DNA from: an uncultured Erysipelotrichaceae bacterium
GTDB lineage: Bacteria > Bacillota_I > Bacilli_A > RF39 > UBA660
Length of the DNA: 34,500 bases
Assembly: GCA_948439995.1 (NCBI GenBank)
Contig: CAOJNP010000010.1
Location: forward strand, 1-34,500
Direction of reading: 5' to 3'
The notes under the pieces were generated by a model that was given only the letters and a program-made list of their open reading frames with translations, made no database searches and was not told the origin of the DNA. A program made the translations under genes and the position numbers. Below, in pieces: positions 8,048 through 34,500 of the stretch (positions within the stretch are counted from its first letter, which is position 1; every line of letters starts with the position of its first letter).

Positions 8048-9670
8048 ATGAAAAAAGTATTAATTAATATTGAAAATAATAATTTACAAATCTCTTTCAA
8101 AAATCACACCAAAATGCGAGAAGACCTAATCAACACCAACATTTTAAGTAACAGTGAACTTTTATTTGGAGTGGATTACCTTCATAACAATGAGAAAATC
8201 GTTTCTATTTTTTTAAAAGAACTTTGCGAAATAAAAAAGCTTACTTGCATAACCTTTGATAATAACGAACTAGCCTTGATTTTGTTACCTTTATTAAAAA
8301 ATAATAATATGATCAAAGAAGTTTATATTAAAAGTGACGAAACTCTTACCTATGCCATCTGTGAAAAATTAATGGAATCAAAATACATTGAATCTATCAA
8401 TTGTTATAATATTCCTGCATTTTTAATTGAAATGCTAGATCAAGATTATATAAAAGTAGAAACAAGAAGTGAATTTTTTTATATAAGTAATTTCATGCAA
8501 GAAAATGGATTAGTACAATATTCAAAAATGTATTATAAAACGACCGTGAGAATAAAAATACCTCTAACGGAAGAAGATAAAAGTGATTTTACAACATTTA
8601 CGAAAATTAATCGCTATTTAAAAAACATCAAAATAGAAAACTTCTCAAATAAAGATATTGAATTTATATTAAAAACAGTAAAAGAAAACCATTTGAAAAA
8701 TGTAACAATTCATATTCCAGGAAACAATATTAAAGAAAAACAAATAGAATTTTTAAAAAATGAAAATAAAAAATGGAATAAATTTCATTTAAAATGTAAA
8801 TTATCGTATTCCGATGATTATTTAAAAGAAAATATTTTTAAACAAATGATATTAAATACAATTAAGATTTGTGGATTAATTATTATTATTCTAGTCGGTT
8901 CGGTAATTGCTTTTGTAGGAACTAGAAATTATTTTTCCATGAAAAAAGTAGATTTAATTCAAGAAAATGTGCAAAATACGATTCATAAAGCAACTCAAAC
9001 AGGAGAATTAGAAATTATACCAGATAATGATTATATTATTAAAAATAATTACATCGCATCTTTATTATCTATTAATGAAGATGTAGTTGGTTGGTTAAAA
9101 GTAAATAATACTAATGTAGATTATCCAGTTGTAAAAGGCCCTGATAATGAATTTTATTTAAATAAAAATTTATATAAAGAAAAAGATGAAAATGGTTGGA
9201 TTTATATGGATTATCGAAATAGCGATAAAGAATTAAAACAAAATACCATTATTTATGGCCATAATATGTATTATAGTGGTGTCATGTTTGGTACCCTTAG
9301 TAAAGCATCTTATAAAAGTTGGTATACCAAAGAAGAAAATTTAACCATTTCTTTTAATACCATGTATGAAACGATGGATTGGCAAATATTCTCTATTTAT
9401 CATGTCAATAAAACCAATGATTATCTTGTCACCGATTTTGCCAATGAAACAGACTTTTTTAATTATATTACCATGGTGAAAAAAAGAAGCTTTCGCGACT
9501 TTGGAGTTGAGATCAAAGAAACGGATAAAATTTTAACATTGTCCACTTGTACTGGTGATAATGAAAGATTAGTAATTCATGCTAAGAAAAAAGAAACAGA
9601 AGAAGTTATCGATGAAATAAAAGAAAACAATGAGAATTTAGAACAAACAAAAGAAGAAAATCCAATTTAA
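8048..9670 (+). CDS. srtB: Class B sortase with large N-terminal extra domain
   Basis: This membrane transpeptidase should cleave NPQTG-type signals and join the protein to the cell wall. The sortase domain occupies about residues 335-515. It has WLKVNNTNVDYPVV, the catalytic His405 in IIYGHNM, Cys501 in LTLSTCTGD and Arg507 in ERLVIHA. One membrane helix lies at about 272-291. Before it are about 270 residues with no signal peptide, predicted cytoplasmic, which I do not recognise. They alternate short hydrophobic strands and charged helices and could be a repeat-type scaffold. Class B sortases are usually about 250 residues, so this protein is twice the normal length. A charged Glu/Lys/Asn tail follows the catalytic domain. 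The divergent NPQTG gene is the obvious partner. Its stop overlaps the stop of the opposing glycosyltransferase gene. Confidence 0.9.
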   Translation: MKKVLINIENNNLQISFKNHTKMREDLINTNILSNSELLFGVDYLHNNEKIVSIFLKELCEIKKLTCITFDNNELALILLPLLKNNNMIKEVYIKSDETLTYAICEKLMESKYIESINCYNIPAFLIEMLDQDYIKVETRSEFFYISNFMQENGLVQYSKMYYKTTVRIKIPLTEEDKSDFTTFTKINRYLKNIKIENFSNKDIEFILKTVKENHLKNVTIHIPGNNIKEKQIEFLKNENKKWNKFHLKCKLSYSDDYLKENIFKQMILNTIKICGLIIIILVGSVIAFVGTRNYFSMKKVDLIQENVQNTIHKATQTGELEIIPDNDYIIKNNYIASLLSINEDVVGWLKVNNTNVDYPVVKGPDNEFYLNKNLYKEKDENGWIYMDYRNSDKELKQNTIIYGHNMYYSGVMFGTLSKASYKSWYTKEENLTISFNTMYETMDWQIFSIYHVNKTNDYLVTDFANETDFFNYITMVKKRSFRDFGVEIKETDKILTLSTCTGDNERLVIHAKKKETEEVIDEIKENNENLEQTKEENPI

Positions 9671-18921: not shown

Positions 18922-18942
18922 GGACAACTGTCTTAGTCATCC
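18922..18942 (-). terminator. Terminator overlapping the virD4 stop codon
   Basis: On the minus strand GGATGAC pairs with GTTGTCC over seven bases (two wobble pairs), with the TAA stop in the loop, followed by a T-rich tract. Confidence 0.6.
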
Positions 18943-21164
18943 CCAAAGAAATCGTCAAAAAATTCATCATCTGTAATTACATTATCATTCATAATGATAC
19001 TATCTGCATCAATATTTATTTTTGGTTTTTCGACTTGCGTTTTTTCCTCGGCTTTATTCACTGAAATAGAATTTGAAGTCGTTTTTATAGAATCAGGAGT
19101 AGAAGAAGGATTTGGAACTATTTCTTCTTCTTTTTCTTCTATTTCTTGCTTTTTAGCAAGTTCTTTTTGTTTTGCTTCTTCTTCATCCAATTCCTTTAAT
19201 TTCTTATCAATATCTGCAATCATTTTATCTATCTCATCATTGGATAAATTACTTGGATTCATTCCTGATAAAGAACCTCCAAAAGGATTGGCATTGGGAT
19301 TTGATCCAAATGGATTATTCGGCATCATATTTCCAAACGATGGCATAGAAGGCCCCATTGGATTTCCTCCCACTGGTGGCATACCAGGCATAAATGGATT
19401 AAATCCAGAATTATTTGTTCCATTGTTTGCTGGATTATTCATATCTTCCATCATTTTTTTTCGTTTTTCTTCTGAAACGTATTTTTTTAAATCAAATAAA
19501 TCAATTGGCTTTTTTTCACGAATTGGTAAATCAGCCATCGTTCTTTTGATTCCCCAATCCATTTTAAAATCTGGTTCTAATTTCGTTCGAAAAGGATTCA
19601 TTCTCAAACGTTTAATAATAACTTCAAACAATTTCATTTTTTGCAAATCTGTAACGGTTACAAGTGGTGTACTAGCCGTTTTATCTTTTTCTTTACTCTT
19701 CACTTCTCCACACATTTTACTGATTTCTTCCAAAGCAGACATTTCAGTACTAATTAAATATACTAAATTACCACAGTTTCCTTTGATAATTTCTGCTACT
19801 TCTTTTCCATAAACATCATTTAACTGAGAAAAATTTTGAATAATAAAGGTAAATCTTATATCACGACTTCGCGCAGCTGATACCATTGATGCAACATCCT
19901 TTAAAGCTGGCATATTAGCAAACTCATCTAAAATAAAATTGGTTCGATATGGCAATTTTCCACCTTGTTCTTTCGCCACATCAATTAAGGTTTCATAACA
20001 TTGTTTAATAAAAATAGTCATTAAACTATGATAAGTTGTTTTTTCATCATGAATAATCATAAAAATAGCGGTTTTTTCCATACCAATAGAACGCATGTCA
20101 AAATCACTATATGAAAGCATTTCTGATAAACTTTCACGAGTAGCAAATTGACGTACTTTCTGACGGAAAGTGGAAGTAATACCACCTTTGGTATCATTTG
20201 GCGCATTAATTGTATTATTCGCAAAGATATAAGGACTAGAAGATTCACCTTTTAAATGAAAATATTCTTTAATATAATTACTAGTTGCAAATCTTTCTTC
20301 TCCAACTGTATCCATAAAATTTACAGAATTTAAATTAATTTCACTTTCTTTTGCATCTAAAAATAATCCAAGTGCAAGTCCAGAAAAATAATCTGATGCA
20401 CTTTTCTCCCAGAATGGATCTTTACTTTTCGCATCACTTAAAATGTTCAAAGCAACATCTTCTAAAAGTTCTGTTGATTTATCAATATCACCTTTTTTAT
20501 GATATTGATAAGGAAGGGTAAGAGGGTTCCAAGCGTTTCCATTTTGAGGATCACGGAAATTTAAAATGATAATATTATATCCTTGTTCTTTTAAATATTC
20601 ACCACAATAACGATAAAGTTCTCCTTTAGGGTCTGTAATAATCATACTTTCGCCTTTTTTGGCTAGTAAATTAACCATCGGTTTAACAATTGTTTCTGAT
20701 TTACCTGAACCAGTAGAACCAATAACTAAATTATGATACTCTCCGTTATCTACCCAAATATCTGTCCCATTATTAATAAGAGGAATACCTGCTGCTTCTA
20801 CTTTATTATCTCCAGGCTTTACATGTCCAACTCCTTTATCTTCTTTAATTTCTTTTTCCTTAGCCCATCTAGAATATCCTTTTTCTTCTTTTTCTCCAAC
20901 ATTCAAAAAATGCTTTCCACTTTTATCTTTGTCAAAAATATAAGATGAAACACTAGAAAAAATAATGATTAAAGCGATAAAAAACATCACTAAAGTAAGG
21001 GCTATTTTATCAGGCGCAAAAGCTGGAAATGGATTGAGTCCAAAAAAAGATCCATCAAGTGAAAATGAGGAAAAATTTAAAACAGCAATTGCACATAAAT
21101 AAAGTAAAAAAATACAAAATGCAATAAAAATAATAAAATCCTTTGGTGCAACACGAAACTTCAT
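18933..21164 (-). CDS. virD4: T4SS coupling ATPase, VirD4/TraG type
   Basis: This inner-membrane ATPase recruits substrates to the secretion channel. The 743 residues start with two membrane helices (about 9-30 and 55-76). The Walker A motif is GSTGSGKSE at 149-157, followed by TDPKGELYR. Walker B is NFILDEF at 409-415, followed by the characteristic ANMPALKDVASMVSAARSRD. After the core (to about 565) comes a Met/Pro/Gly/Asn-rich linker with three NPF motifs (near 589, 617 and 626), a Lys/Glu coiled coil (about 642-690) and an acidic end DDEFFDDFFGDD. Such acidic tails in coupling proteins often bind accessory factors or substrates. It has its own -10 box and GGAGGAG ribosome site, and lies downstream of the rest of the T4SS. 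No relaxase gene is adjacent. Confidence 0.94.
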   Translation of the reverse strand: MKFRVAPKDFIIFIAFCIFLLYLCAIAVLNFSSFSLDGSFFGLNPFPAFAPDKIALTLVMFFIALIIIFSSVSSYIFDKDKSGKHFLNVGEKEEKGYSRWAKEKEIKEDKGVGHVKPGDNKVEAAGIPLINNGTDIWVDNGEYHNLVIGSTGSGKSETIVKPMVNLLAKKGESMIITDPKGELYRYCGEYLKEQGYNIIILNFRDPQNGNAWNPLTLPYQYHKKGDIDKSTELLEDVALNILSDAKSKDPFWEKSASDYFSGLALGLFLDAKESEINLNSVNFMDTVGEERFATSNYIKEYFHLKGESSSPYIFANNTINAPNDTKGGITSTFRQKVRQFATRESLSEMLSYSDFDMRSIGMEKTAIFMIIHDEKTTYHSLMTIFIKQCYETLIDVAKEQGGKLPYRTNFILDEFANMPALKDVASMVSAARSRDIRFTFIIQNFSQLNDVYGKEVAEIIKGNCGNLVYLISTEMSALEEISKMCGEVKSKEKDKTASTPLVTVTDLQKMKLFEVIIKRLRMNPFRTKLEPDFKMDWGIKRTMADLPIREKKPIDLFDLKKYVSEEKRKKMMEDMNNPANNGTNNSGFNPFMPGMPPVGGNPMGPSMPSFGNMMPNNPFGSNPNANPFGGSLSGMNPSNLSNDEIDKMIADIDKKLKELDEEEAKQKELAKKQEIEEKEEEIVPNPSSTPDSIKTTSNSISVNKAEEKTQVEKPKINIDADSIIMNDNVITDDEFFDDFFGDD

Positions 21165-21995: not shown

Positions 21996-22685
21996 TCACT
22001 CTTTTCCTGTTTTTATTTTATATCCAATTACACAAAAAATAAATAGAAAAAAAAGAATCATAATTCCCAAAGCAAAATAAAGTTTAGAACCCATTTCTTC
22101 TGGTACGTTTGGTATTTTATATGTAGATGGAAAAGTAAGAATGATTCCACTTTCTTGAATATTGTTTGAAGTAATATTCCACTCATAAATATGATCATGA
22201 ACAACAGCTGCATTATGAACTATGACAGGTCGATCTATCTCAATTTGAATATTTATTTGAGATATTTCAGGAAATTTTTCCATACATAAAAATTCAGAAC
22301 TCGTAGATATTGTAATGGTTTTTTCTTTTTTATCCTCTGTGACATAAAAATGTTCATAACATGATTGAATGGAATTTGCATTAACAAAATTTTCTTTTGA
22401 AAATGTATTTGTTAATTTTCTATGATAGTAATTATGTTCTAGAAAAAGTTCTTCAGCATAATAAGTAACTCCTTCTATTTTTTCTGGATTTTCCCCTAAA
22501 TCTGGATCATAATAGTAAAGTTTCACTGGCCATGATTTTTCTTGAAATTGATTACTTTCTTCTTTAGATTCAGACCTTACAATAATTGTTTCTTGAAATT
22601 CATTCTGTTCGTTTATTGTTAATTGATAATCTACACTGCATCCACTTAAAATAAACGTAATTAAAACTAAAATAATATACTTCAT
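21996..22685 (-). CDS. Lipoprotein with C-terminal membrane anchor
   Basis: This is a predicted surface lipoprotein of 229 residues. Its signal peptide ends in a lipobox LSGC with Cys16 as the lipid-modified residue. The ectodomain (about 17-185) starts VDYQLTINEQNEFQETIIV, a beta pattern seen in LppM-type domains. It has two further Cys and repeated Thr/Ile strands. A second hydrophobic helix (about 202-222) and a basic tail follow, so the mature protein would be tethered at both ends. It lies 25 bases after the wall hydrolase gene and is probably co-transcribed with it. A role in assembling or stabilising the T4SS at the membrane is inferred from position only. Confidence 0.82.
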   Translation of the reverse strand: MKYIILVLITFILSGCSVDYQLTINEQNEFQETIIVRSESKEESNQFQEKSWPVKLYYYDPDLGENPEKIEGVTYYAEELFLEHNYYHRKLTNTFSKENFVNANSIQSCYEHFYVTEDKKEKTITISTSSEFLCMEKFPEISQINIQIEIDRPVIVHNAAVVHDHIYEWNITSNNIQESGIILTFPSTYKIPNVPEEMGSKLYFALGIMILFFLFIFCVIGYKIKTGKE

Positions 22686-22710: not shown

Positions 22711-24888
22711 TTAATGATTTGTATAAGTAAAATGCATTGGATCATAATACTTACTTGACCAATCTCCACCCCAATAAAAGCCATGATTTTTCCAAATAGA
22801 AACAACTCGACTATTAATATAATATGGACTATCACGATTGATATTCGTACTTTGATATATAGCAGGATTTGCAGAAGCATTAATATCAATTGCTACTCCA
22901 TAAGAGTGATGAGAAAGACTACCAGTCCCTGAAGCCATGACTCTATAATTATATCCTCCTGCTGATGCAATTGGAAAACCAATGTTAACCATCTCTTCAA
23001 AGATAGCTTTAATTTCATTAGCTAATTTAGAATGTACAGTCAAAGAAATAGTAGACTTAGTTCCTGATACATTTACAACAGGAACTTGAATTGTAGTTAA
23101 ATATGCATTAATTTGCTCTTTTGATTTTGGAATACCATTTGGAAACAACCACTTCATTCGATCTGATGAATTTACACTTCCTGCTTCTCCTAAAGCAACA
23201 TTTGTTCCATATATTGAGGTACAATTTTCACTATCTAAATGAAAAATATTTTTCCGATAAGTTAATATTTTTTTTGATTGCCAATCAATATAAGCCTGTT
23301 TTTCTGTTTCTGTCGTCTTGACACAACCAGGTCCACCTTTTGAACTTTTACATTGATAAGAAGAATTACATCTAGAATAATTTTTTCCATAAATATCATT
23401 TAAAGTTAAATAATAACAACCTCCATCACCTTCACTACCTGGATTAGCTAGATAGGTTCCAAGATAAGAATAAACTTTGGTAAAAGACGATAAATTTCCT
23501 TTTCTTTTTACATAATTTAAAATATCAATTACTCCATCTTCAAAACTATTGTAACATTTTCCTGTTGAAGTTCCATTTGTCACTCCCATACCATAATAAT
23601 TATTACATCGCAATGTAAAATCAGTATCTTTCCAACCCTGTTCTTTTTCAGCAATAATATAAACCATTTCTGGATTTGCACCAATTTCATTTCCTAAATC
23701 ATAAATTCTACCTGCATTTTCTCGAAAAAGTTTAGCAGTTTTAGAAGTACGTTTTAGTAAATAAGATTCCACTAATGAAATAAATTCATCTCGAGTTAGA
23801 TTTGTTTTAAAAAAATCAATATAAGAACATTGGACGGAATTTTCTAATATGTTATTGTCTTTTGAATTTTCTTTTATAACAGTTTTATATTCCCATTTAC
23901 TTGGATAGAAAAAACGAATAATTTGATCATCATTGTATCCGGGTAAATCAGATAAATAATACGCAGTATAAACACTAAATCCAGTTCCAGAATCTCCACC
24001 ATCTACATAACGATACCAAGTAATTTTATTTCCATCTTCATCCTCATCATCACCATAAGAAAACTTTTCTTCAACCCAACAACTATTTTCTTGCTTTTTA
24101 CTTCTTTTTTTTCCTGGCACACATGGGCAATTACGAAAAAGAGATTCATCAATTTCATCTTTTACCCAACTGGTTGGAATATTACTACCACTATAATCAT
24201 TATAAATCGTATATTCTTCCTCATTTTTTGTTTTATAACAAAAAGAATCAAAATCAACATTCATAATTTGATTATTATCTACCATTACAAGACCTGGTAC
24301 ATATTCATCTACCACTCTAGATATTTCTATATATCTCGAATTACTAGACGTTAATATTTCAAAATCATAAAATTCATCGACTTCATCTGTAATATTTAAT
24401 GTACAATTATTTAAAGATTGGGCATTTGTTCTAACAATAACTGCAATTGCTTGATATAAAACACGTTCAGGATGATTCATATCTTTTGTTAAAGAATAAA
24501 CCATTGATTTAACATATTCTTCTAATTTTAGATTTAAATCTTCATTTTCTCGATGTTCAAAATGAATATTAACTTCGGTACATTTTGGGGGTAAATATTC
24601 ATATTTTACTTTCAATTCATCTGACATTAAAATAGAAAAAAAGAGTAATGCAATAAGTGCTAAGACAAAAACACCTATCACGATCTTAGTCTTAAGAGAA
24701 AAAAGTTTTTTTAACGCTTTTAAATCCGCTATTCCAATTCCTTTTCCAGGAGAAACCATTTCAATTGGTTGTTCTTCGATTTCCTGTTCTGATCCACTTT
24801 CAAAAGCCGATTCGTTAGATGGTTCTTCTGATATTTCTTGATCATTTTCTAAATCTTCATTTTCTAATATTTCTTCTCTGTCATTCAA
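22711..24888 (-). CDS. T4SS-associated multidomain cell-wall hydrolase (VirB1 analogue)
   Basis: This protein probably opens the peptidoglycan for the secretion channel. I start it at the TTG at 24888, placed after AGGTGGTGAT, giving 725 residues. The GTG at 24900 would lie inside that ribosome site. Residues 1-60 are acidic and cytoplasmic, and a membrane helix follows at about 67-88. A stretch near 121-160 (LEEYVKSMVY and ERVLYQAIAVIVRTNAQSL) resembles the start of SpoIID/LytB domains. A glucosaminidase or lysozyme-like domain (about 385-500) has MVYIIAEKEQGW and CNNYYGMGV. The last 120 residues are an M15-type peptidase: SHHSYGVAIDIN and DPMHF supply the zinc ligands His, Asp and His. Thus glycan and peptide cleavage may both be encoded. 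It has its own promoter and follows the virB4 terminator. Confidence 0.88.
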   Translation of the reverse strand: MNDREEILENEDLENDQEISEEPSNESAFESGSEQEIEEQPIEMVSPGKGIGIADLKALKKLFSLKTKIVIGVFVLALIALLFFSILMSDELKVKYEYLPPKCTEVNIHFEHRENEDLNLKLEEYVKSMVYSLTKDMNHPERVLYQAIAVIVRTNAQSLNNCTLNITDEVDEFYDFEILTSSNSRYIEISRVVDEYVPGLVMVDNNQIMNVDFDSFCYKTKNEEEYTIYNDYSGSNIPTSWVKDEIDESLFRNCPCVPGKKRSKKQENSCWVEEKFSYGDDEDEDGNKITWYRYVDGGDSGTGFSVYTAYYLSDLPGYNDDQIIRFFYPSKWEYKTVIKENSKDNNILENSVQCSYIDFFKTNLTRDEFISLVESYLLKRTSKTAKLFRENAGRIYDLGNEIGANPEMVYIIAEKEQGWKDTDFTLRCNNYYGMGVTNGTSTGKCYNSFEDGVIDILNYVKRKGNLSSFTKVYSYLGTYLANPGSEGDGGCYYLTLNDIYGKNYSRCNSSYQCKSSKGGPGCVKTTETEKQAYIDWQSKKILTYRKNIFHLDSENCTSIYGTNVALGEAGSVNSSDRMKWLFPNGIPKSKEQINAYLTTIQVPVVNVSGTKSTISLTVHSKLANEIKAIFEEMVNIGFPIASAGGYNYRVMASGTGSLSHHSYGVAIDINASANPAIYQSTNINRDSPYYINSRVVSIWKNHGFYWGGDWSSKYYDPMHFTYTNH

Positions 24889-24912
24889 GAATATCACCAC
24901 CTAATTATCATG

Positions 24913-24988: not shown

Positions 24989-26776
24989 TTATAATCCTCC
25001 ACCAGAACCAAATGAATCAAGCTCTTCTTGTGTCACTATAACTCGAATTTGCATTCTTCTATTACCACAAACAAATAAGGCTTCACCTTGATTATAATAT
25101 TTAATCATATCTTTTTCACTATCATTTAAATCGATCAATCGCGCTAAATCATCAACCGCTTGTTTCTTTAAATTCATTACCATATAATAAGCAGCATTGT
25201 CAAATATTGCTTTACCATGTGTTATAACATTTGGAGCAGCAAAATCGGTTGGTTGTTGTGTAATGATAATAGTTCCAGTATTGTATTTTCTACTTCTTCG
25301 TTGTATCTGTGCTAAGAATTCAGCACCTAATTCATTTCTTGTAGCCAAAAGAACATGGGCTTCATCTACATATAACACAGTATTAACTGTGGAATCTAAA
25401 CATAAACCCCAAGCGTATTTTAAAATATTAAAGAATAGTGCATTTTTAATATTATCATCTGAATTCATCAATTCTCGAATATTAAAAACAATAAAATCAC
25501 TTTCAATATGTAAAGTTGTATGTCCAGTAAAATAATATCGTAATTCTTTGACTAAAGGTCTAATTTTTAATTCCAAACGCTCCATGACATCACGTTCATG
25601 TGTTTTTTCTGTCATAGAAAGAAGTCTACCTTTAATCGTTGCATATACATCGTCAAAAGTTGGATAATCTTCGGATGTAAATTGAGTGTAATCAGTATCA
25701 AAATCAATTTTATATCGTTTGTATGTATCTTGTACAACTTCTGTAAATAAAGTTAAAACATCTTCTTCAATACTAGGAGAATAATATTTCATAAACGCCT
25801 TTAAGTTTTGTAAAGTACGTGTTAAAATTGTATATCCAAGTCCTTGAGAAATTTCGTTTTCATCAGCATCAATGACAATTTCCAGTGGATTGATCATACC
25901 AAATTCTCCACCTTTACCAAGATCAAGAAAATCTCCTCCCATTGTGCGAGCCATGTCTTCTAATTCACCCTCTGGATCAATACAAACTACTTTGGATTCA
26001 TTTCGTAAATGATTTCGAAGTAATAACTTTGCACTCGTTGATTTACCACTACCAGAAGTTCCTAAAATAATAATATTTGCATTATTTCGATTGCTTTCTT
26101 TTTTAATTTGATATAAGAATTGATTAAACAATATAACTCCACCAGAGGAATCAACACCAAAAAGTGCACTATTTCCAGGATCTTTAATACTATCAAAAAC
26201 AAATGGATACATTGCTGCGATCGTAACAGATGGAATTGGAGTTCCAATACGGTTTTCCACATCTTGTTTTGGAAAAATTGGAATCATAGATTTGATTACT
26301 TTTTCTTGTTCAAACATAAGAGGTATTCCTCTCATTCCTAAAGCATCAAGATAATTTCGTACTTGAATCTTTTTTAAATCCAATTCGTCTTTCGTATCAG
26401 CAGCAATCATAATATGTAATTGATAATCAAAAATGCGAGCTTGCGTTGCTACCAGCATTTGAATAAATTGTTCTAATGACTCATAATCTTGACGAATTCG
26501 TTCTTGAATAGTTTTATCATGTTCTGATTGATATCTAGTTTTTAAATCTGCTATTTCTTTATTAATCATACTTTGTAATGTAGATAACTCAATTGGAATG
26601 TGTTTCACAGCCACTTTAATTCCAGTCATCATATTTGTTAAATTAGCTAAATAACCAACTTGAATATATTTTGGATAACTAACAATTGTTAATATCGTAC
26701 AATATTTTCCACTCATCATAAAATCCATTGGTTTAAAATCTATTCCCTTTGGAGCTAATTGTGCTTTAATATTCAT
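24989..26776 (-). CDS. virB4: VirB4 ATPase, motor part
   Basis: VirB4 is the hexameric ATPase that powers assembly and substrate transfer in T4SSs. The 595 residues include the second half of the VirB4 N-terminal domain with a coiled coil (about 60-105), then the RecA-like motor. Walker A is GTSGSGKST at 239-247, followed by VVCIDPEGELEDMA. Walker B is VLYVDEAHVLL at about 467-477, and IIITQQPTDF near 505 is the sensor. The normal family length is about 800 residues. Here the first part is a separate gene (26776-27342), and the two genes overlap by one base (TAATG). The sum, 783 residues, equals a standard VirB4. The C-terminus ends in a flexible SFGSGGGL tail. It is the last gene of the main T4SS operon. 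Confidence 0.93.
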   Translation of the reverse strand: MNIKAQLAPKGIDFKPMDFMMSGKYCTILTIVSYPKYIQVGYLANLTNMMTGIKVAVKHIPIELSTLQSMINKEIADLKTRYQSEHDKTIQERIRQDYESLEQFIQMLVATQARIFDYQLHIMIAADTKDELDLKKIQVRNYLDALGMRGIPLMFEQEKVIKSMIPIFPKQDVENRIGTPIPSVTIAAMYPFVFDSIKDPGNSALFGVDSSGGVILFNQFLYQIKKESNRNNANIIILGTSGSGKSTSAKLLLRNHLRNESKVVCIDPEGELEDMARTMGGDFLDLGKGGEFGMINPLEIVIDADENEISQGLGYTILTRTLQNLKAFMKYYSPSIEEDVLTLFTEVVQDTYKRYKIDFDTDYTQFTSEDYPTFDDVYATIKGRLLSMTEKTHERDVMERLELKIRPLVKELRYYFTGHTTLHIESDFIVFNIRELMNSDDNIKNALFFNILKYAWGLCLDSTVNTVLYVDEAHVLLATRNELGAEFLAQIQRRSRKYNTGTIIITQQPTDFAAPNVITHGKAIFDNAAYYMVMNLKKQAVDDLARLIDLNDSEKDMIKYYNQGEALFVCGNRRMQIRVIVTQEELDSFGSGGGL

Positions 26777-27342
26777 TATGGACTCACCATCCCACTAAAT
26801 GTTGCTGCATTTCCCCCATTAAAGAAATTATCGATAATTACTCTTAAGTCATTATTGGAAGTTTGTGTTGAATTAAGACCACATAATGCTAAATTACTAA
26901 TTAAATTATTAATTCGTTTTTGAATGATTTCCATTTTCTTTTCTTTAAATAAAATATAATATTCGGTATCAACCACATTGTAAGCAGCACTCATAAACAT
27001 ATTTGCTTTATTAATATCTTCTTGAATTAATTTTCGACTTACATTTGATTGTGCTTTATTAAAAAGAATTTGTAATTGAGATAAATAAACGTTAATATCT
27101 ACAGGACGATCTGCTACAATAAGCCAAAATTCATAATCCACTGCATTGTAAAAATTTCTTAAATTATAAATAATATTGTCTCTTTCCGATTGATCCATAA
27201 TAAAAATGTTTCTTGGCATTACTTTAATACCTGTAACATATTCTCCATTATCTAATTGAATCATTCCATTCATGATCCCTCGAATTGGAATCCAATCTTC
27301 TGTCCATTTCGAAGTCATTTCTTGTGCTTTATTTTTTGCCAT
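26776..27342 (-). CDS. VirB4 N-terminal domain encoded separately
   Basis: These 188 residues look like the first part of the VirB4 N-terminal domain. The opening, DWIPIRGIMNGMIQLDNGEYVTGIKV, matches the usual start of Gram-positive VirB4/TraE-like proteins, followed by RNFYNAVDYEFWLIVADRPVD and a helical part that ends at the join with the motor gene. There is no ATPase motif. The stop overlaps the motor gene start by one base, and the start overlaps the PrgI-like gene by 14 bases. Both overlaps point to coupled translation and equal amounts of the two parts. The second half of the same domain begins the next protein, so the two chains should associate. A simple frameshift artefact is less likely, because the downstream ATG is well formed and the reading change is at a clean TAATG. 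Confidence 0.85.
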   Translation of the reverse strand: MAKNKAQEMTSKWTEDWIPIRGIMNGMIQLDNGEYVTGIKVMPRNIFIMDQSERDNIIYNLRNFYNAVDYEFWLIVADRPVDINVYLSQLQILFNKAQSNVSRKLIQEDINKANMFMSAAYNVVDTEYYILFKEKKMEIIQKRINNLISNLALCGLNSTQTSNNDLRVIIDNFFNGGNAATFSGMVSP

Positions 27343-27637
27343 CGTAAATACACCAACCTTTCCAATAATACCTCTTTCGATTTATAATAAATAAAATAAT
27401 ATTTGTTAATAATTGCATTACATTATGATAATTAGGAACTGGTGCCACTAAAAACGCAGCAATAATGGCTGGAAGAAGTACCAATAAAGCCATTTGTAAT
27501 GTCATCGACTGAAAAACAAATAACATAGCAATAGTTAGTGTACAACCAACTCCAAAAACTACTAAATCGATTGGTGTAAAAAATCCTAATATTAATTTGG
27601 ATTTTTTCGTATTTGCTGGTATCAAAAAATTATTCAT
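27329..27637 (-). CDS. prgI: PrgI/VirB3-like T4SS membrane protein
   Basis: PrgI-family proteins occupy the VirB3 position in Gram-positive T4SSs and lie directly before virB4. The 102 residues start with a short soluble part (NNFLIPANTKKSKLILGFFTP), then two closely spaced hydrophobic segments (about 24-42 and 46-66). A short segment ends in IINRKRYYWKGWCIYDGKK. Length, topology and gene order all fit. A ribosome site GGGTGATG precedes the ATG. The gene is 23 bases after the VirB6-like gene and overlaps the next one by 14 bases. Confidence 0.85.
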   Translation of the reverse strand: MNNFLIPANTKKSKLILGFFTPIDLVVFGVGCTLTIAMLFVFQSMTLQMALLVLLPAIIAAFLVAPVPNYHNVMQLLTNIILFIINRKRYYWKGWCIYDGKK

Positions 27638-27660: not shown

Positions 27661-29787
27661 TTAATTATTATTATTGCTATTATTCGCTTGAGTTCGGAAT
27701 AATTCACGTCGTTCTACATCTGAAATTGCATTCGATGCATTCCCTTTAATACTTCCTAACATTCCATATAAAGTATCTAAGTCATCACCACTTAAATCTG
27801 AAATATTAACATTAGCTAAATCAATTCGATCCAATAAGCTAGTTTGAGAAGAATTTAACCCTTTTAAAACTTCTACTTTTAAATCTGCATATTTATCCAT
27901 GTTTGCACCTAACGTACGTAAAACTCCTTGTAATTGACTTTGTTTATTAGGTTGCGATTGAATTGCTCTTTCAATTCCTTTGATATCAGCATCAGCTCTG
28001 TTAAATCCACGTAAAGCACTTATAAAATTAGTTGCATCACTAATTCCTGCAGCTCTTGCAATATCTGAGTGATCCATTGCGTTCCACTCATCATCCGTTC
28101 CTGAAAAACTTGCTCTTGCCTGTGCTAATTTTTCATTATATGCATCCCACTGTACTTGATTAGTATATTTAAATAAATTACCACGTGCTCTTGTAAGTCT
28201 TTCATCCGCCTTTTTCCAAGCATCCGAATCTTTCCATACATTTTGAATACCTGAAGTTGAATTTTTAATTGCATTCATGGCTTCTTTTAAACGATTATCT
28301 GTAATTGCAGATTCTCCCCAACCAACAGTACTTCTTGCAGTATTACCAAAATCTTTTATATGACCAAGACCACTACCAAAAGCTGTTCCAATAAAAGGAA
28401 TGTCCATACGATGGGAAGCACGATAAGCTTCTAGTTTATTACGTTTGGCTTCTTGTTCTTCCACTCCAGATTTTCTTGCCTTATTCATATCTGCTAAATT
28501 TTTAGCACTCATTCCTTTAATTCCTGCACGTGTACCAGCTGAAAAAGCACTTTTAATCCCAGAAGATAAAAATCCTCCACTTACTCCCCAGATGCCGCTT
28601 GCGATAGCCGCAGCTTTTTTAGCTCCTGTTAAATTCTGGTCTTTTACACTTCGAAAACTTCTTAATCCACCTTGAATACTATGTGTAATTCCACGAGTTA
28701 AGCCAAGAGCACTTGCTCCAAGAAAAGCTCCAGCACCTAAAGCTCCACCAGCTCCAAGTTTTCCCATGAAATCTTTTAAACCAAGTTTAATATTTCCAGA
28801 ATCAATTCCCGTAATATCCGATAATAATTTTGGAAATTCTTTGGCAAACATTAAAATTCCCATAATAATTAAAACATTCGCAATAATACCTGTAAGCCCT
28901 GCACCACTCGCCCAATTAAGTTCAAAATTAGAAATAAAATAAACGACTAAGTACATTATAAAAACTCGTACAAACACTTCTGTAAAACAGGCTATGGTCT
29001 TTTTTAACCATTTTTTAAATACTTCATTTTTTGTAGGCATTACCCGCATTAAAACCGGAATCGGTGCAATGAGTTGTAAAAATGCAAGACGGGCTGCTCG
29101 AACTGCTAAATCCAAAGAAAAAGTAGCAAGTACATAAATCAAAAAGATGCCAACGGCTGTTGAAAAGCCAAAATGATAAGTAACCTTTCCATCGACAATA
29201 GCATCGGCCATATTACCGATTAATACAAAATTAGAGGATGATTCTTGTATTGCTTTTTCTATTGAATCACAAGTATACTCGCCAAAATTACACTCCTTTT
29301 TCTCCGCATTTAAAAATGCACTCAAAGAAGTATAAGCAAGCCTTACACCAAACTCATTTTGAACATTTGTTTGTTCATTATTTGCAACGCCAGTACCTAA
29401 AACTAAAATACCAATTGTATTCTTCTCTAAAATAAAATTTTGAATATTATAAGCAAAGTCAAAAATAGAAGGAAGTAAACCACAAATAACCAAAGAAGTT
29501 ACAAAAGTAGGAACCATTTTAGAAATTCCTTTTTCTCCTTTGGTCAACTGTTCTGGATCTACCAAAGCTTTTAAAAGGGCATAAGCCAAAACAAATAACA
29601 TGATAACACCTAAAACAGAATAAATTCGTTGGGAAAAATTACGATAAAAATCATCTTTAAAAATATTAGTTCGAGCAAGTAAAACAAAAATATCATACAT
29701 AATAGCTACAAATTGGTAAATAATAGCATCTAACCACAATAAAATACTATGAAATCCAACGCTTAAAGCATGTTTCCAACCCATCAT
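27661..29787 (-). CDS. VirB6/TrbL-like polytopic channel protein with long soluble tail
   Basis: This is the probable inner-membrane channel core of the T4SS. In 708 residues, about six to seven hydrophobic helices fill the first 340 (for example GVIMLFVLAYALLKALV, AVGIFLIYVLATFSLDLAV, VLIIMGILMFAKEFPKLL). A loop near 125-190, with two Cys (ECNFGEYTCDS), is probably outside the cell. LQLIAPIPVLMRVMP is a feature common in Gram-positive VirB6-type proteins. A Gly/Ala-rich segment (GKLGAGGALGAGAFLGASAL) follows, then about 300 hydrophilic, basic and helical residues that should be cytoplasmic and end in an Asn run. Two adjacent ATG codons follow AAGGAGGTG, and either may be used. The tail is unknown and may contact VirB4 or substrate. 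Confidence 0.88.
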   Translation of the reverse strand: MMGWKHALSVGFHSILLWLDAIIYQFVAIMYDIFVLLARTNIFKDDFYRNFSQRIYSVLGVIMLFVLAYALLKALVDPEQLTKGEKGISKMVPTFVTSLVICGLLPSIFDFAYNIQNFILEKNTIGILVLGTGVANNEQTNVQNEFGVRLAYTSLSAFLNAEKKECNFGEYTCDSIEKAIQESSSNFVLIGNMADAIVDGKVTYHFGFSTAVGIFLIYVLATFSLDLAVRAARLAFLQLIAPIPVLMRVMPTKNEVFKKWLKKTIACFTEVFVRVFIMYLVVYFISNFELNWASGAGLTGIIANVLIIMGILMFAKEFPKLLSDITGIDSGNIKLGLKDFMGKLGAGGALGAGAFLGASALGLTRGITHSIQGGLRSFRSVKDQNLTGAKKAAAIASGIWGVSGGFLSSGIKSAFSAGTRAGIKGMSAKNLADMNKARKSGVEEQEAKRNKLEAYRASHRMDIPFIGTAFGSGLGHIKDFGNTARSTVGWGESAITDNRLKEAMNAIKNSTSGIQNVWKDSDAWKKADERLTRARGNLFKYTNQVQWDAYNEKLAQARASFSGTDDEWNAMDHSDIARAAGISDATNFISALRGFNRADADIKGIERAIQSQPNKQSQLQGVLRTLGANMDKYADLKVEVLKGLNSSQTSLLDRIDLANVNISDLSGDDLDTLYGMLGSIKGNASNAISDVERRELFRTQANNSNNNN

Positions 29788-29797
29788 TGCACCTCCT

Positions 29798-30241
29798 TTA
29801 CTGACCTATTCCACATGTTTCTAAATCATAAATCCCAAAAGTTTCAAATAAGAAATCTAATAGAAAAGGTAATAGGAAAATTAAAATCCCAATAATTAAT
29901 CTTTTTACAAACTTTCCATTTGCTTTTTTTAATCCTTCAGCATCATGAGAAGTAATTGCTTTTACATAATCAATAGTGGATAAAATGATAACTAAAATAG
30001 GAGCTGCAAATTTCATAATTTTAAAACCATCTTGTAACGCATAATAAAGAGAATTATATTCCCCATCAGACTTAAAAATAGATTCACAATTAATGGATTC
30101 ACTTTCAATAGGTTCTAATTCCAAAGCACAAGTTAGCGAAATATCATCTAATAATGATATTTCTTGTGCACTTACAATAATTGGTAGAACACAAAAAAAA
30201 GCAATCATAAAAAATGCAAAGATACGATTCGATTTCTTCAT
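29798..30241 (-). CDS. VirB2/TrbC-like pilin-type protein
   Basis: This small exported protein is the simplest member of a family repeated in this operon. It has a signal peptide (about 1-25, ending VSA), a short acidic mature region with three Cys, and two hydrophobic helices (about 74-93 and 112-132). The helices are separated by a charged loop SHDAEGLKKANGKFVKR, the topology of VirB2 and TrbC pilins. The tail DLETCGIGQ has one Cys. Its helices align by eye with the C-terminal modules of the three longer proteins upstream (30342-33500). It has a GAGGTG ribosome site and an extended -10 in the 100-base gap before it. Polymer formation is inferred from family, not shown. Confidence 0.8.
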   Translation of the reverse strand: MKKSNRIFAFFMIAFFCVLPIIVSAQEISLLDDISLTCALELEPIESESINCESIFKSDGEYNSLYYALQDGFKIMKFAAPILVIILSTIDYVKAITSHDAEGLKKANGKFVKRLIIGILIFLLPFLLDFLFETFGIYDLETCGIGQ

Positions 30242-30280
30242 TTTTGCTTCACCTCGAAACCTTTTTATTTTCTATAAACT

Positions 30281-30289
30281 ATTTTACCA
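30281..30289 (-). promoter_or_regulatory. Internal extended -10 promoter in the T4SS operon
   Basis: The minus strand reads TGGTAAAAT, a TG-n-TAAAAT box about 40 bases before the small pilin-like gene. It may give that gene and those downstream extra transcription. Confidence 0.4.
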
Positions 30290-30341
30290 GTTTTTTAAAA
30301 AGATTGCTACATTTTCTTGCATTTAATTTTAAAATATTGCT

Positions 30342-31223
30342 TTAACAATTATATGGACTAACTAAACATTTACTACAATTTCGATAATCAGTAGAATACT
30401 GATTCCAATCATCCACAAGAGAAAAAATTAAATTAATAATTGTTGGGATGAAGAAAATCACTACTCCAGAAATGACGCGAAAAACCAAACTACGAGCTGA
30501 TTTTTTAATTTCATCGTCTTTATTTGCAATCAAAGCCCTAAAAAAATCAAATGAACCAAATCCAATAATTAATATTGGAATTAAAATTTTAAAAATAGTA
30601 AAAATTTTACCAACAAATCGAAATGGTTTTAAAAAATCTCCAGAACAATAAGATGTTCCAGCATCTTTAACACTATTTTGTGATCCATTATTATTTTTCT
30701 TTGTTACTTTTACAAATCGCACAGAACTGATTGCAGTGCCATTTGGAATATTTCTACATTGATCCAAACCTTCGATAATATGGCCAACAATTGGAAATTT
30801 AGCAATAGCATTTTCATAAAAAAAATAAAGGCGAGAAGTATAAACAAGAGAAGTATCTTCATTTTCTACAAAAGCCGTGACATCTCCCTTTTCTGGTATT
30901 TTATATTTATTTTTTTTACCTTCATATGTACTATCTTGAGATTGATAAACAAAAACAAAACCCAATCCTTCATTTAATGACGTAGAAACATCAAAATTTT
31001 GATCTTTAATTTGATCTTTAATTTTCTTAACGAGAGTTGCATCGGAAGAGGAATCAAATTCCATTAGCAAAATAGTACCATTGGTAAATTCTAATTTTGC
31101 ATAATTTGTTTTCGTATCCGTTTCCTTAAAAGTATAATTTCCTAAATCACCAGATTCCATGGCATTCACTTGAGTACAAATAGAAATCAATATAACTAAG
31201 AAAATAACATAAAATTTTTTCAT
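30342..31223 (-). CDS. Pilin-module chimera with cyclophilin-like ectodomain
   Basis: This exported protein of 293 residues joins two parts. A signal peptide ends at VNA (about residue 20). The ectodomain (about 35-180) reads like a divergent cyclophilin: AKLEFTNGTILLMEF at the start, GKVIEG-like FPIVGHIIEGLDQCRNIPNG and a last strand ISSVRFVKV in the right order. The usual catalytic Arg, Phe and His residues are not evident, so it may bind rather than isomerise prolyl peptides. A linker with Cys leads to two helices (about 206-225 and 245-264) around NKDDEIKKSARS, the VirB2/TrbC-like module, and a tail ending CSKCLVSPYNC. The module matches the proteins at 31236 and 32289. The gene lies 12 bases after the 324-residue paralogue. 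Cyclophilin relationship is inferred from pattern only. Confidence 0.75.
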   Translation of the reverse strand: MKKFYVIFLVILISICTQVNAMESGDLGNYTFKETDTKTNYAKLEFTNGTILLMEFDSSSDATLVKKIKDQIKDQNFDVSTSLNEGLGFVFVYQSQDSTYEGKKNKYKIPEKGDVTAFVENEDTSLVYTSRLYFFYENAIAKFPIVGHIIEGLDQCRNIPNGTAISSVRFVKVTKKNNNGSQNSVKDAGTSYCSGDFLKPFRFVGKIFTIFKILIPILIIGFGSFDFFRALIANKDDEIKKSARSLVFRVISGVVIFFIPTIINLIFSLVDDWNQYSTDYRNCSKCLVSPYNC

Positions 31224-31235
31224 TTTGAAAACCTC

Positions 31236-32210
31236 CTAACATGATTTTGGATCATACAAACATTTTGTACACTCTGAATAATTTGACTGATAATCATTCC
31301 AATCATCTATAAGTGCAAATAAGAAATGAATCATAGCTGGGATAAAGAAAATAACAACTCCAGCTATTACTCTAAATACCAAAGCCTGAATCGCTTTTGG
31401 AATTTCGTCTGATTTATTAGAAATCATAACCTTAAAAAAATCAATTGCTCCAAAAATAATGATTAAAATTGGAATAATAACTTTTGCAGCAGTAAGAATC
31501 CAACCAACATATTTTAGTGGGACTTTTAAATTATTACTTTTACATAATTGATTGATTTCTGTATCTGTAATAGGAATAGGATCTACTTCAATATCTGGTT
31601 TTGGTTTTTCAGTAGATTCAGACTCATCTGAGCCATCTGAACCATCTTCGTACATTCCACCTGAATTATCTAGATCTGCTGCATTTGTAAGAGATATTAC
31701 AAATGTTTTTCCAGCACCTGATCCAGTTTCTAACACATATATTTTTTTGGGACAAGTTTTAACATTTTTCACATTATCATTTATGGAAAGAGTAGCACTT
31801 TGATTGCTTTTTATTTTCCAAGAATCTCCTGATTTAGTCATAGTAATTGTCATTCCATTTTTAGATGTATAAGAACAACCTTCCGTTTGCTCAATTAATT
31901 TTCTACTATTATTTGTTTCTTGCTCTGCAAACCCAACAGAACAATTACATGTTCCCATCGGACAAGATGCCATTACATTCATAAAAGCTGGGCAAACACT
32001 CTTTACATAATTATAATTTACTTTACAAGTTGCATTGATTGCATTGGGTGCAGCAAAAGACCCAGTAATTGTTCCATTTCGATTAATAACAGAATAACCA
32101 CCATTATAAACACAAGCTGTATTTGTATAACCAGTCAATTCTTCTGCATTAACATTCGATACAGAAAAAACAAGTAAAATAAGAAATAGCCAAAATAATT
32201 TTTTTCTCAT
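31236..32210 (-). CDS. Pilin-module chimera with Cys-rich ectodomain
   Basis: This is an exported protein of 324 residues. After a signal peptide (ending VNA at about residue 22), a Cys-rich ectodomain runs to about residue 180, with CPAFMNVMASCPMGTCNCS near 74-92 and a later unit from EGCSYTSKNG to TCPKKIYVLE. That unit resembles the one found twice in the 403-residue protein. An acidic Ser/Asp/Pro linker follows (about 190-218). The C-terminus is the VirB2/TrbC-like module: a conserved Cys, helix VIIPILIIIFGAIDFFKV, loop NKSDEIPK, helix VFRVIAGVVIFFIPAMIHF, then a tail with CTKCLYDPKSC. An extended -10 lies in the 78-base gap upstream, and GAGGAATTG is the ribosome site. Whether the ectodomain is cut off or carried on a pilus is unknown. 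Confidence 0.78.
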   Translation of the reverse strand: MRKKLFWLFLILLVFSVSNVNAEELTGYTNTACVYNGGYSVINRNGTITGSFAAPNAINATCKVNYNYVKSVCPAFMNVMASCPMGTCNCSVGFAEQETNNSRKLIEQTEGCSYTSKNGMTITMTKSGDSWKIKSNQSATLSINDNVKNVKTCPKKIYVLETGSGAGKTFVISLTNAADLDNSGGMYEDGSDGSDESESTEKPKPDIEVDPIPITDTEINQLCKSNNLKVPLKYVGWILTAAKVIIPILIIIFGAIDFFKVMISNKSDEIPKAIQALVFRVIAGVVIFFIPAMIHFLFALIDDWNDYQSNYSECTKCLYDPKSC

Positions 32211-32232
32211 TTCAATTCCTCAATTCTTTTAT

Positions 32233-32241
32233 AGTATAACA
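32233..32241 (-). promoter_or_regulatory. Internal extended -10 promoter before the 324-residue gene
   Basis: The minus strand reads TGTTATACT, a TG-n-TATACT box about 23 bases upstream of the start. A weaker T4SS-internal promoter is plausible. Confidence 0.4.
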
Positions 32242-32288
32242 AAAATACAATTAGAAAACTACCTCAAGACTTAATAGAACGTCAAATA

Positions 32289-33500
32289 CTATGGGATATT
32301 GCATTGATCTGGATTTAAAATGCAAGTATAACAATTATCATACTCTTTTATCGTATCAGAATATCCTTGCACAGCATCAAACATAAAATTAATGATAGTA
32401 GGAATAAAGAAAACAATCACACCCGCAATAAAACGTTTTATAAAAATAGGGACTTTTTTCTTAATTTCATCATCTTTTCCAGCAAGTATAGCTTTTCCAA
32501 AATCAATACTACCAAAAATGATAATTAAAGCTGGCACGAAAATTTTAGCGATATAGAGCAAAATGCCAAGAAATTTAAGTGTTCTAGCAACTCCTGCATC
32601 TTTACAATATTTTTTTAAATCCAGCTTATCTTTATCATAAGTAATAGATGGCTTTTCTTCTTTTTTATTATCATCTTTCTCTTCTTCTTTTTCTTTATAG
32701 GATTCTCCATCATCTTTCCCAGAAAAATCTGCTGCATTATTTAAGGGATCAGGTTTTTTTGAAGTAATATAAAACCGTTTTGAATCTCCATCTGGAGTAT
32801 ATAAAAAAATTTTTGATGAACTACATTTATCAGACCAAAAAGAAGCAATATTTTTCCATTCTTTATCCATAAAAACAGTATAACTAACACTTCCAACTGA
32901 CAAAGAAGTAACCCCATTATATACTGCTCGGCTTTGAACATTCTTATTATTATAAGAAGAAACCTCAAACATATGCTTGCCATCAATATCATCATAAAAT
33001 CGTACAGAAATGGGAGAATTAGTTGCAAGAGACTTCGACAAAGTACAATATTCTTTTTCTTTTCTAGTATCTACGTTAACTGAATTATTTAATACCTTTA
33101 AATTTCCGGATAAAGATTGAACTTCTAAATAATCCATTTCCTCAAGGGAAGAACTTTCTCGTCCATAATAAATCCAAATAACATTTTGATTATCTCTTCC
33201 CACAGATAGTCTTGGACATGTAGAAGCTAATTTTCCATCTTTATATAATGCATCTGAATAACTATTAAAATTTTTATAATTAACGAAATAATCATTTTTA
33301 TTTTTAGCTGTAAAATAAGCACTTGGTGGCAATGAATAAAATAGCTCACCACTATCATCAATTGAAATGGTAAATGATTCAGATATTCCAGTCAAACTCA
33401 TGTTATAAGTACACTCAGCTATCTTAGTAGCAGCTTCAACAACAGTTATACTAAAAAAACAAACAAGAAAGAACAAAAAACTTTTATATATTTTTCTCAT
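32289..33500 (-). CDS. Pilin-module chimera with two-repeat ectodomain
   Basis: This is the first gene of the T4SS operon, 403 residues. A signal peptide ends at VEA (about 23). The ectodomain (about 25-260) seems to hold two related beta-rich units. The first runs from AECTYNM to STCPRLSVGRDN. The second begins at EKEYCTL and runs to DKCSSSKIFLYTPDG, with NNAADF after it, close to the SLTNAADL of the 324-residue protein. A Lys/Glu/Asp linker (about 265-290) leads to a conserved Cys, then helices IFVPALIIIFGSIDFGKAIL and FIAGVIVFFIPTIINFMF around GKDDEIKKK, and a tail containing CYTCILNPDQC. This matches the VirB2/TrbC-like module of its two neighbours. It has AGGAAAGTAGGT as ribosome site and a good -10. 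Ligand unknown. Confidence 0.78.
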   Translation of the reverse strand: MRKIYKSFLFFLVCFFSITVVEAATKIAECTYNMSLTGISESFTISIDDSGELFYSLPPSAYFTAKNKNDYFVNYKNFNSYSDALYKDGKLASTCPRLSVGRDNQNVIWIYYGRESSSLEEMDYLEVQSLSGNLKVLNNSVNVDTRKEKEYCTLSKSLATNSPISVRFYDDIDGKHMFEVSSYNNKNVQSRAVYNGVTSLSVGSVSYTVFMDKEWKNIASFWSDKCSSSKIFLYTPDGDSKRFYITSKKPDPLNNAADFSGKDDGESYKEKEEEKDDNKKEEKPSITYDKDKLDLKKYCKDAGVARTLKFLGILLYIAKIFVPALIIIFGSIDFGKAILAGKDDEIKKKVPIFIKRFIAGVIVFFIPTIINFMFDAVQGYSDTIKEYDNCYTCILNPDQCNIP

Positions 33501-33565: not shown

Positions 33566-33708
33566 TTAAAAAACTTTTTTATTTATAAAGAAAAGTAAAT
33601 TACTTGTATCATATTCATGCCAAGAAACAACTTGTCTAGTTTGTGAATCATATATTTTTTAGCAAATGACTCCGCTTCATCATTTGCAACTCCTAAAATA
33701 CGATGTTT
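33566..33708 (-). pseudogene. Decayed C-terminal fragment of an FGE-like surface protein
   Basis: On the minus strand one frame gives HRILGVANDEAESFA (33705 onward). After a frame change at an A run (33655-33660) another gives IYDSQTRQVVSWHEYDTSN, ending at a TAA at 33566. The intact neighbour has RRILGDATGETGPFES, then VIYESQVSQINSWHNDEAW, in the same order and spacing. This is therefore the remnant of a second copy, missing its front and its last part. It begins right after the stop of the intact gene. It fills most of the 206-base gap between genes. No function is expected. Confidence 0.75.
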
Positions 33709-34500
33709 AAATTGTTATAACAATTCGATAACTAACTCCTGAATCAATGGAACCACTATGAGCACCAAAAGCAAACACTCCAGCATTTATAGCACGAGCA
33801 TAATATGAACTTCGAATCGACCAGGGAGAAAAATAAACTGGAAACCAAGCCTCATCATTATGCCAAGAATTAATTTGGCTTACTTGTGATTCATAAATAA
33901 CACTTTCAAAAGGACCTGTCTCTCCTGTTGCATCTCCTAAGATTCTCCTGTTATAATGTTCATCATCAATTCCATATAAATAAATATCATAATATTTCTT
34001 CTCTGGAAAAGAAGTACCAGAAGCCGTTCCACTTGTATAACAATATGGACCTGTAAATCCACTAGTGTAAGTTGCATCTCTTCCAGCACATGGCTGTCCA
34101 TTTGTATGAAGCATGACTCCCATCATATATTCCCATGATCCTCCACTCATATCATAGATTCCAGAAATATTATTTGTTGTACTTGCTAAATATCCTATTT
34201 CACTATTATATCTTTTTGTATATGTTCCATCTGTATTTAACGAAGTTCCTTCCTGTTTATTACATTCTCGGTTATCTGCTGTATATCCACACGTTGGTTC
34301 TGCTGTAGCACTATATCCAGTAATAAAACTAGAATTATTATTGATTCTTATTTTTTTTCTGGATCCATAGATACTATGTTGTAGATAAGCTACTGCTCCC
34401 CATTCAGTATTCTTCATCATATGACTATCATATTCTCTTTTATAATTGTAACTATTTAAATGAGCATTTGCTACATTGATGTTTCTCCAACTATATACAT
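33707..34500 (-). CDS. Surface protein with FGE/C-type-lectin-like domain, partial
   Basis: The gene enters from beyond the window, so its start, and any signal or anchor, are not seen. 263 residues are visible, and the frame is open to the edge without a stop. Motifs include SWRNINVANAHLNSYNYKRE and MKNTEWGAVAYLQHSIYG, then ISGIYDMSGGSWEYMMG. The end is AINAGVFAFGAHSGSIDSG followed by SYRIVI. The order, with NTEWGA, a Gly-x-Trp-Glu segment and a final GVF-(G)-YR-like strand, is that of formylglycine-generating-enzyme and sulfatase-modifying folds (C-type lectin related). Such folds are common in surface proteins and in the variable proteins of diversity-generating retroelements. No reverse transcriptase lies in the window. 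Four or more Cys are present. The catalytic Cys pair of true FGE is not evident. Confidence 0.72.
   Translation of the reverse strand, partial: VYSWRNINVANAHLNSYNYKREYDSHMMKNTEWGAVAYLQHSIYGSRKKIRINNNSSFITGYSATAEPTCGYTADNRECNKQEGTSLNTDGTYTKRYNSEIGYLASTTNNISGIYDMSGGSWEYMMGVMLHTNGQPCAGRDATYTSGFTGPYCYTSGTASGTSFPEKKYYDIYLYGIDDEHYNRRILGDATGETGPFESVIYESQVSQINSWHNDEAWFPVYFSPWSIRSSYYARAINAGVFAFGAHSGSIDSGVSYRIVITI

Follow-up and report, generated by a model that had tools for sequence, protein, structure and literature searches.

The window, which is the whole stretch of 34,500 nucleotides analysed here and the entire contig C10 of draft genome G000 (1.14 Mb), carries four consecutive genes whose products share a VirB2-like C-terminal module, in three of them behind long and different extracellular domains. 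The genes lie in a type IV secretion system (T4SS) locus that is conserved in a single family of reduced, RF39-type Bacilli, gut bacteria related to the mycoplasmas, and fusions of VirB2-like modules to ectodomains appear to be new. We give about even chances to the reading that this is a chromosomal, relaxase-less monoderm T4SS in which the VirB2-like subunits also serve to carry extracellular domains that can be exchanged.

All four genes are on the minus strand. CH3 (positions 32289-33500, 403 aa) encodes a signal peptide, an ectodomain of about 285 residues, a figure that takes in a charged linker, a type A module at residues 310-380 and a CxxC...C tail. CH2 (31236-32210, 324 aa) has a signal peptide, a Cys-containing ectodomain of about 205 residues and a type A module at residues 234-304. 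CH1 (30342-31223, 293 aa) has a signal peptide, a cyclophilin-fold ectodomain and a type A module at residues 203-273. SHORT (29798-30241, 147 aa) has a signal peptide, only about 40 residues of ectodomain, a type B module at residues 69-138 and a short tail. These gene boundaries are exact. An earlier note on this DNA had placed the four genes at 29798-33500 and had proposed a two-helix C-terminal module common to all of them. The motifs that it named are present in the first helix (GSFDFF, GAIDFF and GSIDFG), in the loop (NKDDEIKK, NKSDEIPK and GKDDEIKK) and at the end of the second helix (IFFIPT, IFFIPA and VFFIPT). Its three different ectodomains are also confirmed, with the lengths of 150-240 residues corrected to about 175, 205 and 285.

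The C-terminal 70-100 residues of the four products align as two hydrophobic helices and a charged loop. A module HMM trained on 159 modules, all from other genera, scores CH3, CH2, CH1 and SHORT at 89-102 bits (101.8, 97.8, 91.7 and 89.4 for the four genes); the best remaining ORF of the window reaches 8.6 bits. The maximum was 9.3 bits on full shuffles and 28.6 bits on shuffles that kept the hydrophobic layout. The independent HMM and the shuffles together rule out a chance likeness of hydrophobic helices. The modules form two subfamilies, type A with a DDEIKK-like loop and a CxxC...C tail, and type B, to which SHORT belongs, with a short tail. The two are homologous (hhalign 99%, E 8.6e-18), so that SHORT belongs to a distinct subfamily and is still related to the other three. 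All four regions are thus joined by profile, and none was drawn away to an unrelated membrane family.

The module had been taken for a VirB2/TrbC pilin. The VirB2/TrbC profile PF04956 has no match among the window proteins at E up to 1, and the relationship that stands is to T4SS_pilin (PF18895). Against a curated cut-off of 26.6 bits, this profile scores 20.1, 11.7 and 11.2 bits on three of the window proteins, does not match the fourth, and scores 22.4 bits on a further copy on contig C31, but it passes the cut-off in modules of relatives (28.3 bits in L064 and 39.1 bits in L214, the latter fused to a C39-like peptidase). The module is predicted to be a hairpin of two hydrophobic helices (AlphaFold2, AF2) with a cytoplasmic charged loop and both termini outside, which fits what is expected of a VirB2-like conjugative pilin; a positive-inside count finds more Lys and Arg in the loop than in the tail in 230 of 233 modules. 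Weak matches to the VirB6-like mycoplasma profiles Mbov_0396 and MMCAP2_0566 were also found (E 0.0008-0.004). Comparison of the module with the family's own VirB6 was not significant (hhalign, 8% probability), and a fragment of VirB6 or of Tad pilins was rejected as its origin on the hhalign results. As judged by these profiles, the module is VirB2-like and related to T4SS_pilin. Foldseek with the two-helix model matched no solved conjugative pilin (best E 2.6), although a hairpin holds little signal; because of this lack of a fold match, pilus formation by the module is something that we infer.

The genes that follow the array, all on the minus strand, identify the locus as a T4SS. SHORT is followed by a polytopic VirB6/TrbL-like protein of 708 aa (27661-29787; PF19597 27.7 bits, cut-off 27; NF045848 E 7e-10), a PrgI/VirB3-like protein of 102 aa (27329-27637; PF12666 E 2e-4, under the cut-off), and VirB4, encoded as a separate N-terminal part of 188 aa (26776-27342; NF045975 E 8e-15, profile positions 94-276) and an ATPase part of 595 aa that is well conserved across the family (24989-26776; NF045975 E 7e-103, profile positions 294-891). 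Next come a membrane-anchored wall hydrolase with an M15 D,D-carboxypeptidase domain (22711-24900; PF13539 5.6e-18), which may have a VirB1-like role, a lipoprotein of a family here called w10 (21996-22685), which also occurs beside scattered module-CHAP genes in a relative, and the VirD4/TraG coupling ATPase (18933-21164; PF02534 3.9e-55; NF045973 290.6 bits, cut-off 250). The proposal of one T4SS operon is borne out, with VirB6/TrbL, PrgI, VirB4 and VirD4 all present as in systems of the monoderm type.

Some features of these neighbours are recorded for their own sake. In the window (188 + 595 aa, 24989-27342) and in every locus examined, two separate genes encode VirB4. VirB6 (27661-29787) is highly divergent, with 49-53% identity between species of the same genus against 93-97% for VirB4, as if it were under diversifying pressure like the heads, and in L065 (G033:C4:30000-49999) three VirB6-like genes stand in tandem ahead of a single module gene. 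By eye only, a protein at 8048-9670 has a sortase-like C-terminal domain after an N-terminal repeat-like region, and the C-terminal domains of two surface proteins, at 33707-34498 upstream of the array and at 5714-6730, look alike.

The four-gene array is real but incomplete, since the array runs onto contig C31, where a Tad/Flp-like cluster forms part of the same locus. A fifth module gene, without a signal peptide, lies at the end of C31. In two genomes of the same genus (G003 and G006) the order is unbroken: a TadZ-like gene, the C31-type module gene, four more type A genes, most of them long-headed, one long-headed type B gene and VirB6. From this order, C31 can be placed with high probability immediately upstream of the window. 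The surface protein at 33707-34498 (minus strand), of which the contig end leaves the C-terminal part, would then have the C31 module gene on one side and CH3 on the other; it has 570 aa in a close relative. The C31 cluster encodes CpaB/RcpC (TIGR03177, E 1.3e-7 on C31 and 9.5e-12 in a relative), a VirB11/TadA-class ATPase equidistant from VirB11 and TadA, two TadB/TadC-like proteins, a TadZ-like protein and small pilin-like proteins. The TadZ-like name is based on position and the TadB/TadC-like names on position and topology, the latter proteins having no profile match. The small pilin-like proteins (L005/L007) begin MKEATGELN or MREAIGG, seemingly without a prepilin leader, and the genome has a prepilin peptidase gene (PF01478) at another place (G000:C13). 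VirB6 comes immediately after the last module gene in 56 of 58 contig loci and 26 of 28 genome loci. The array is preceded by the TadZ-like gene in 19 of the 58 and 20 of the 28, many of the others stopping short of that position.

Within the family the locus comprises the Tad/Flp-like genes, the array, VirB6, PrgI, split VirB4, the hydrolase, the lipoprotein and VirD4. The VirB4 of the module locus was found in 31 of 37 genomes of the family, G000 included, mostly at 65-97% identity, and the module profile matches 36 of 38. Elsewhere in the class, 258 genomes outside this family gave the profile no match, and its matches in a sample of 392 genomes from the phylum are confined to the same family. 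Named relatives are uncultured Bacilli or Tenericutes, chiefly from animal guts; Candidatus Coprovivens has been assigned to the order RF39 (PMC8035907). The relaxase profile PF03432, the MOB family covered by the search, is not above its cut-off in G000 and has no match in 20 of 27 relatives; in the others, its matches mostly share a contig with a different VirB4 gene. Protein P0002 has no match in plasmid records. A conjugative element was rejected on these two results, and since no PF03432 relaxase is tied to the locus and its presence is family-wide, the locus looks vertically kept and not conjugative.

The heads of the window's chimeras differ from one another. An AF2 model of the CH1 head (about residues 24-175, 30699-31154, minus strand), made from an alignment that held no cyclophilin, has cyclophilins as its top Foldseek matches in the PDB (the best at E 2.7e-5, prob 1.00). 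A profile built on five CH1 heads matches a relative's cyclophilin lipoprotein, L110 (PF00160 1.7e-46), at E 1.4e-7; PF00160 itself gives no match to CH1. Aligned with the L110 cyclophilin, the CH1 head lacks the catalytic His-Arg and Gln of the cyclophilin peptidyl-prolyl isomerase, and for this reason it is probably a binding domain. Among the loci searched, the CH2 head has no relative and the CH3 head has its sole close relative in G005. The idea that CH2 and CH3 have one ectodomain fold in common was considered and dropped, as profile searches with their parts gave no joint family. Between G000 and G005, identity is 67% in the CH1 head and 90% in its module, 72% in the CH3 head and 83% in its module, and 97% in VirB4. 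The sister-species modules nearest to CH2 (52-60% identity) bear unrelated heads. The heads, judged from these identities, are both fast-evolving and exchanged, because they are less conserved than the modules and because unrelated heads stand on CH2-like modules.

The fusion of varied extracellular domains to one module extends to the whole family, as far as the relatives surveyed go. A set of 80 loci contains 181 module genes; in 111 of these, about 100 residues or more precede the module, and tandem runs reach eight genes. A signal-like hydrophobic start is present in 101 of 107 long-headed chimeras by a crude measure. The 134 heads form 60 sequence clusters; these were obtained with a stricter linkage, loose linkage having merged unrelated heads, and the matches between clusters are mostly signal peptides. 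The earlier note was right about the variety of ectodomains and overlooked both the cyclophilin fold and the wall-hydrolase heads that are frequent in relatives. Pfam searches of 113 chimeras, in categories that are not exclusive, found Amidase_3 in nine, NlpC/P60 in six, Peptidase_C39_2 in five, M15_4 in two, a VgrG3-like C-terminal (lysozyme-like) domain in two and Amidase_5 in one. In L090, from the same genus, the counterpart of SHORT (L090:4965-6215) joins an Amidase_3 head (E 2.5e-12) to the module, a head that is missing in the window; type B modules at 57-65% identity occur with or without the amidase head. Scattered copies in the genomes of other family members carry their cargo (CHAP, C39-like, YkuD-like or GDSL-like) C-terminal to the module. 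Since the prediction puts both module ends outside, a fused domain would be exposed whichever end it is attached to.

The reading to which we give about even chances draws its data from homology, gene order, conservation, the fusions, the domain identities and the head swaps. The signal peptide would export each chimera, and the helices would lie in the membrane, the positively charged loop on the cytoplasmic side and both ends outside. At VirB6 and VirB4, modules may gather into a short fibre, ring or base that would consist mostly of plain modules, with the chimeras as minor, co-assembled subunits that place their heads at the machine. Hydrolase heads may open the peptidoglycan there, and the cyclophilin-like and other Cys-containing heads may bind partners. 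Between species the heads are swapped and the module is kept. A tentative version, in which we have distinctly less confidence, has the T4SS built with the Tad-like pilus, and the hydrolase and binding heads, swapped on the pilin-like module, displayed or even delivered at the tip, to give a species-specific contact organelle.

The main rival is that the module is a mere two-helix membrane anchor of T4SS origin, which holds domains at the surface or the channel, makes no fibre and has no structural role. We consider this possible, though on balance unlikely. It is consistent with hydrolases fused at either end of the module, with copies scattered far from T4SS genes and with the lack of a fold match to solved pilins. 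In Gram-positive T4SSs, moreover, the known VirB1-type proteins (PrgK, TraG, Orf14) are membrane-anchored extracellular wall hydrolases (PMC12857230); the RF39 loci differ in that the VirB2-like module itself anchors many hydrolases, with a separate M15 hydrolase as well. The anchor explanation does not account for the headless modules, the C31 gene and its counterparts, that stand between the TadZ-like and VirB6 genes in most loci, and a mere anchor would not need the loop and helix residues that are conserved in the tandem arrays.

That the chimeras are contact-dependent effectors sent into neighbouring cells, with the w10-type lipoprotein as immunity protein, is weaker than the anchor explanation and improbable in our view. 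Genome G116 has 16 matches to the module, as one of the places where divergent copies are many, and in it w10-family lipoproteins come after module-CHAP-type genes at three loci (L200:6848-7483, L201:5270-5941 and L204:5651-6244; E 1e-23 to 1e-26); the window's w10 gene likewise comes after a wall hydrolase. Yet w10 is also a core gene of the locus, most chimeras have no such partner, and the heads in the window are no recognisable enzymes. Least probable of the explanations considered is a module unrelated to VirB2, taken from an unrelated membrane family or a VirB6-like part, to which the weak mycoplasma matches and the sub-threshold PF18895 scores in the window would point and against which stand the PF18895 scores over cut-off in relatives, the insignificant alignment with the family's own VirB6 and the constant position of the module in the T4SS operon.

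Several known systems resemble the one described here in part. FimH is a two-domain tip adhesin made of a pilin domain and an exposed functional domain; the module chimeras are like it in joining a pilin to a head, and unrelated to it in fold and assembly pathway. The VirB2/TrwL paralogues of Bartonella and Anaplasma are tandemly amplified, diversified T4SS pilins, but those systems are Gram-negative and we know of no folded domains added to them. The nearest named relatives of the VirB4 are in the Mycoplasma ICE proteins Mbov_0395/0396/0397 (NF045849, NF045889, NF045975), which have pilin-like and VirB6-like neighbours; these are on mobile elements, whereas the RF39 locus is family-wide and has a split VirB4, a Tad-like cluster and chimeras. 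The tandem Bartonella and Anaplasma genes are thought to vary surface contacts (PMC12102498).

The earlier note knew of no described system like this one. That appears to hold for the fusions and does not hold for the arrays, since relaxase-less monoderm T4SSs with arrays of 2-11 VirB2-like genes are described in Patescibacteria (PMC12102498). The likeness extends to reduced genomes and a pilus system alongside (PMC12102498; Wang et al. 2023 via PMC12857230), and to tandem divergent VirB2-like genes matched by PF18895 near VirB4, VirB6 and PrgI. Compared with what these papers describe, the RF39 array differs in being in Bacillota and in having many members with ectodomains of 100-550 aa, wall hydrolases included. 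According to a 2025 review, Gram-positive T4SSs have no VirB2 subunits, Patescibacteria excepted (PMC12857230). Module-ectodomain fusions are not mentioned in the available portions of either paper, our search of the open-licence literature found no report of such modules fused to folded ectodomains, and no literature was found on a T4SS with Tad in RF39.

VirB2-like arrays are thus present in a second monoderm lineage, one that is common in animal guts. The part that is unreported in the literature found is that pilin-like modules are joined to wall hydrolases, to a cyclophilin fold and to many unassigned domains. The locus suggests a way for a T4SS to cross a thick wall and to alter its contact surface, and the machine may swap the tools that it shows on the cell surface. 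Because the T4SS appears not to be conjugative, the chimeras offer a first handle on the role of this family-wide system in RF39-type bacteria.
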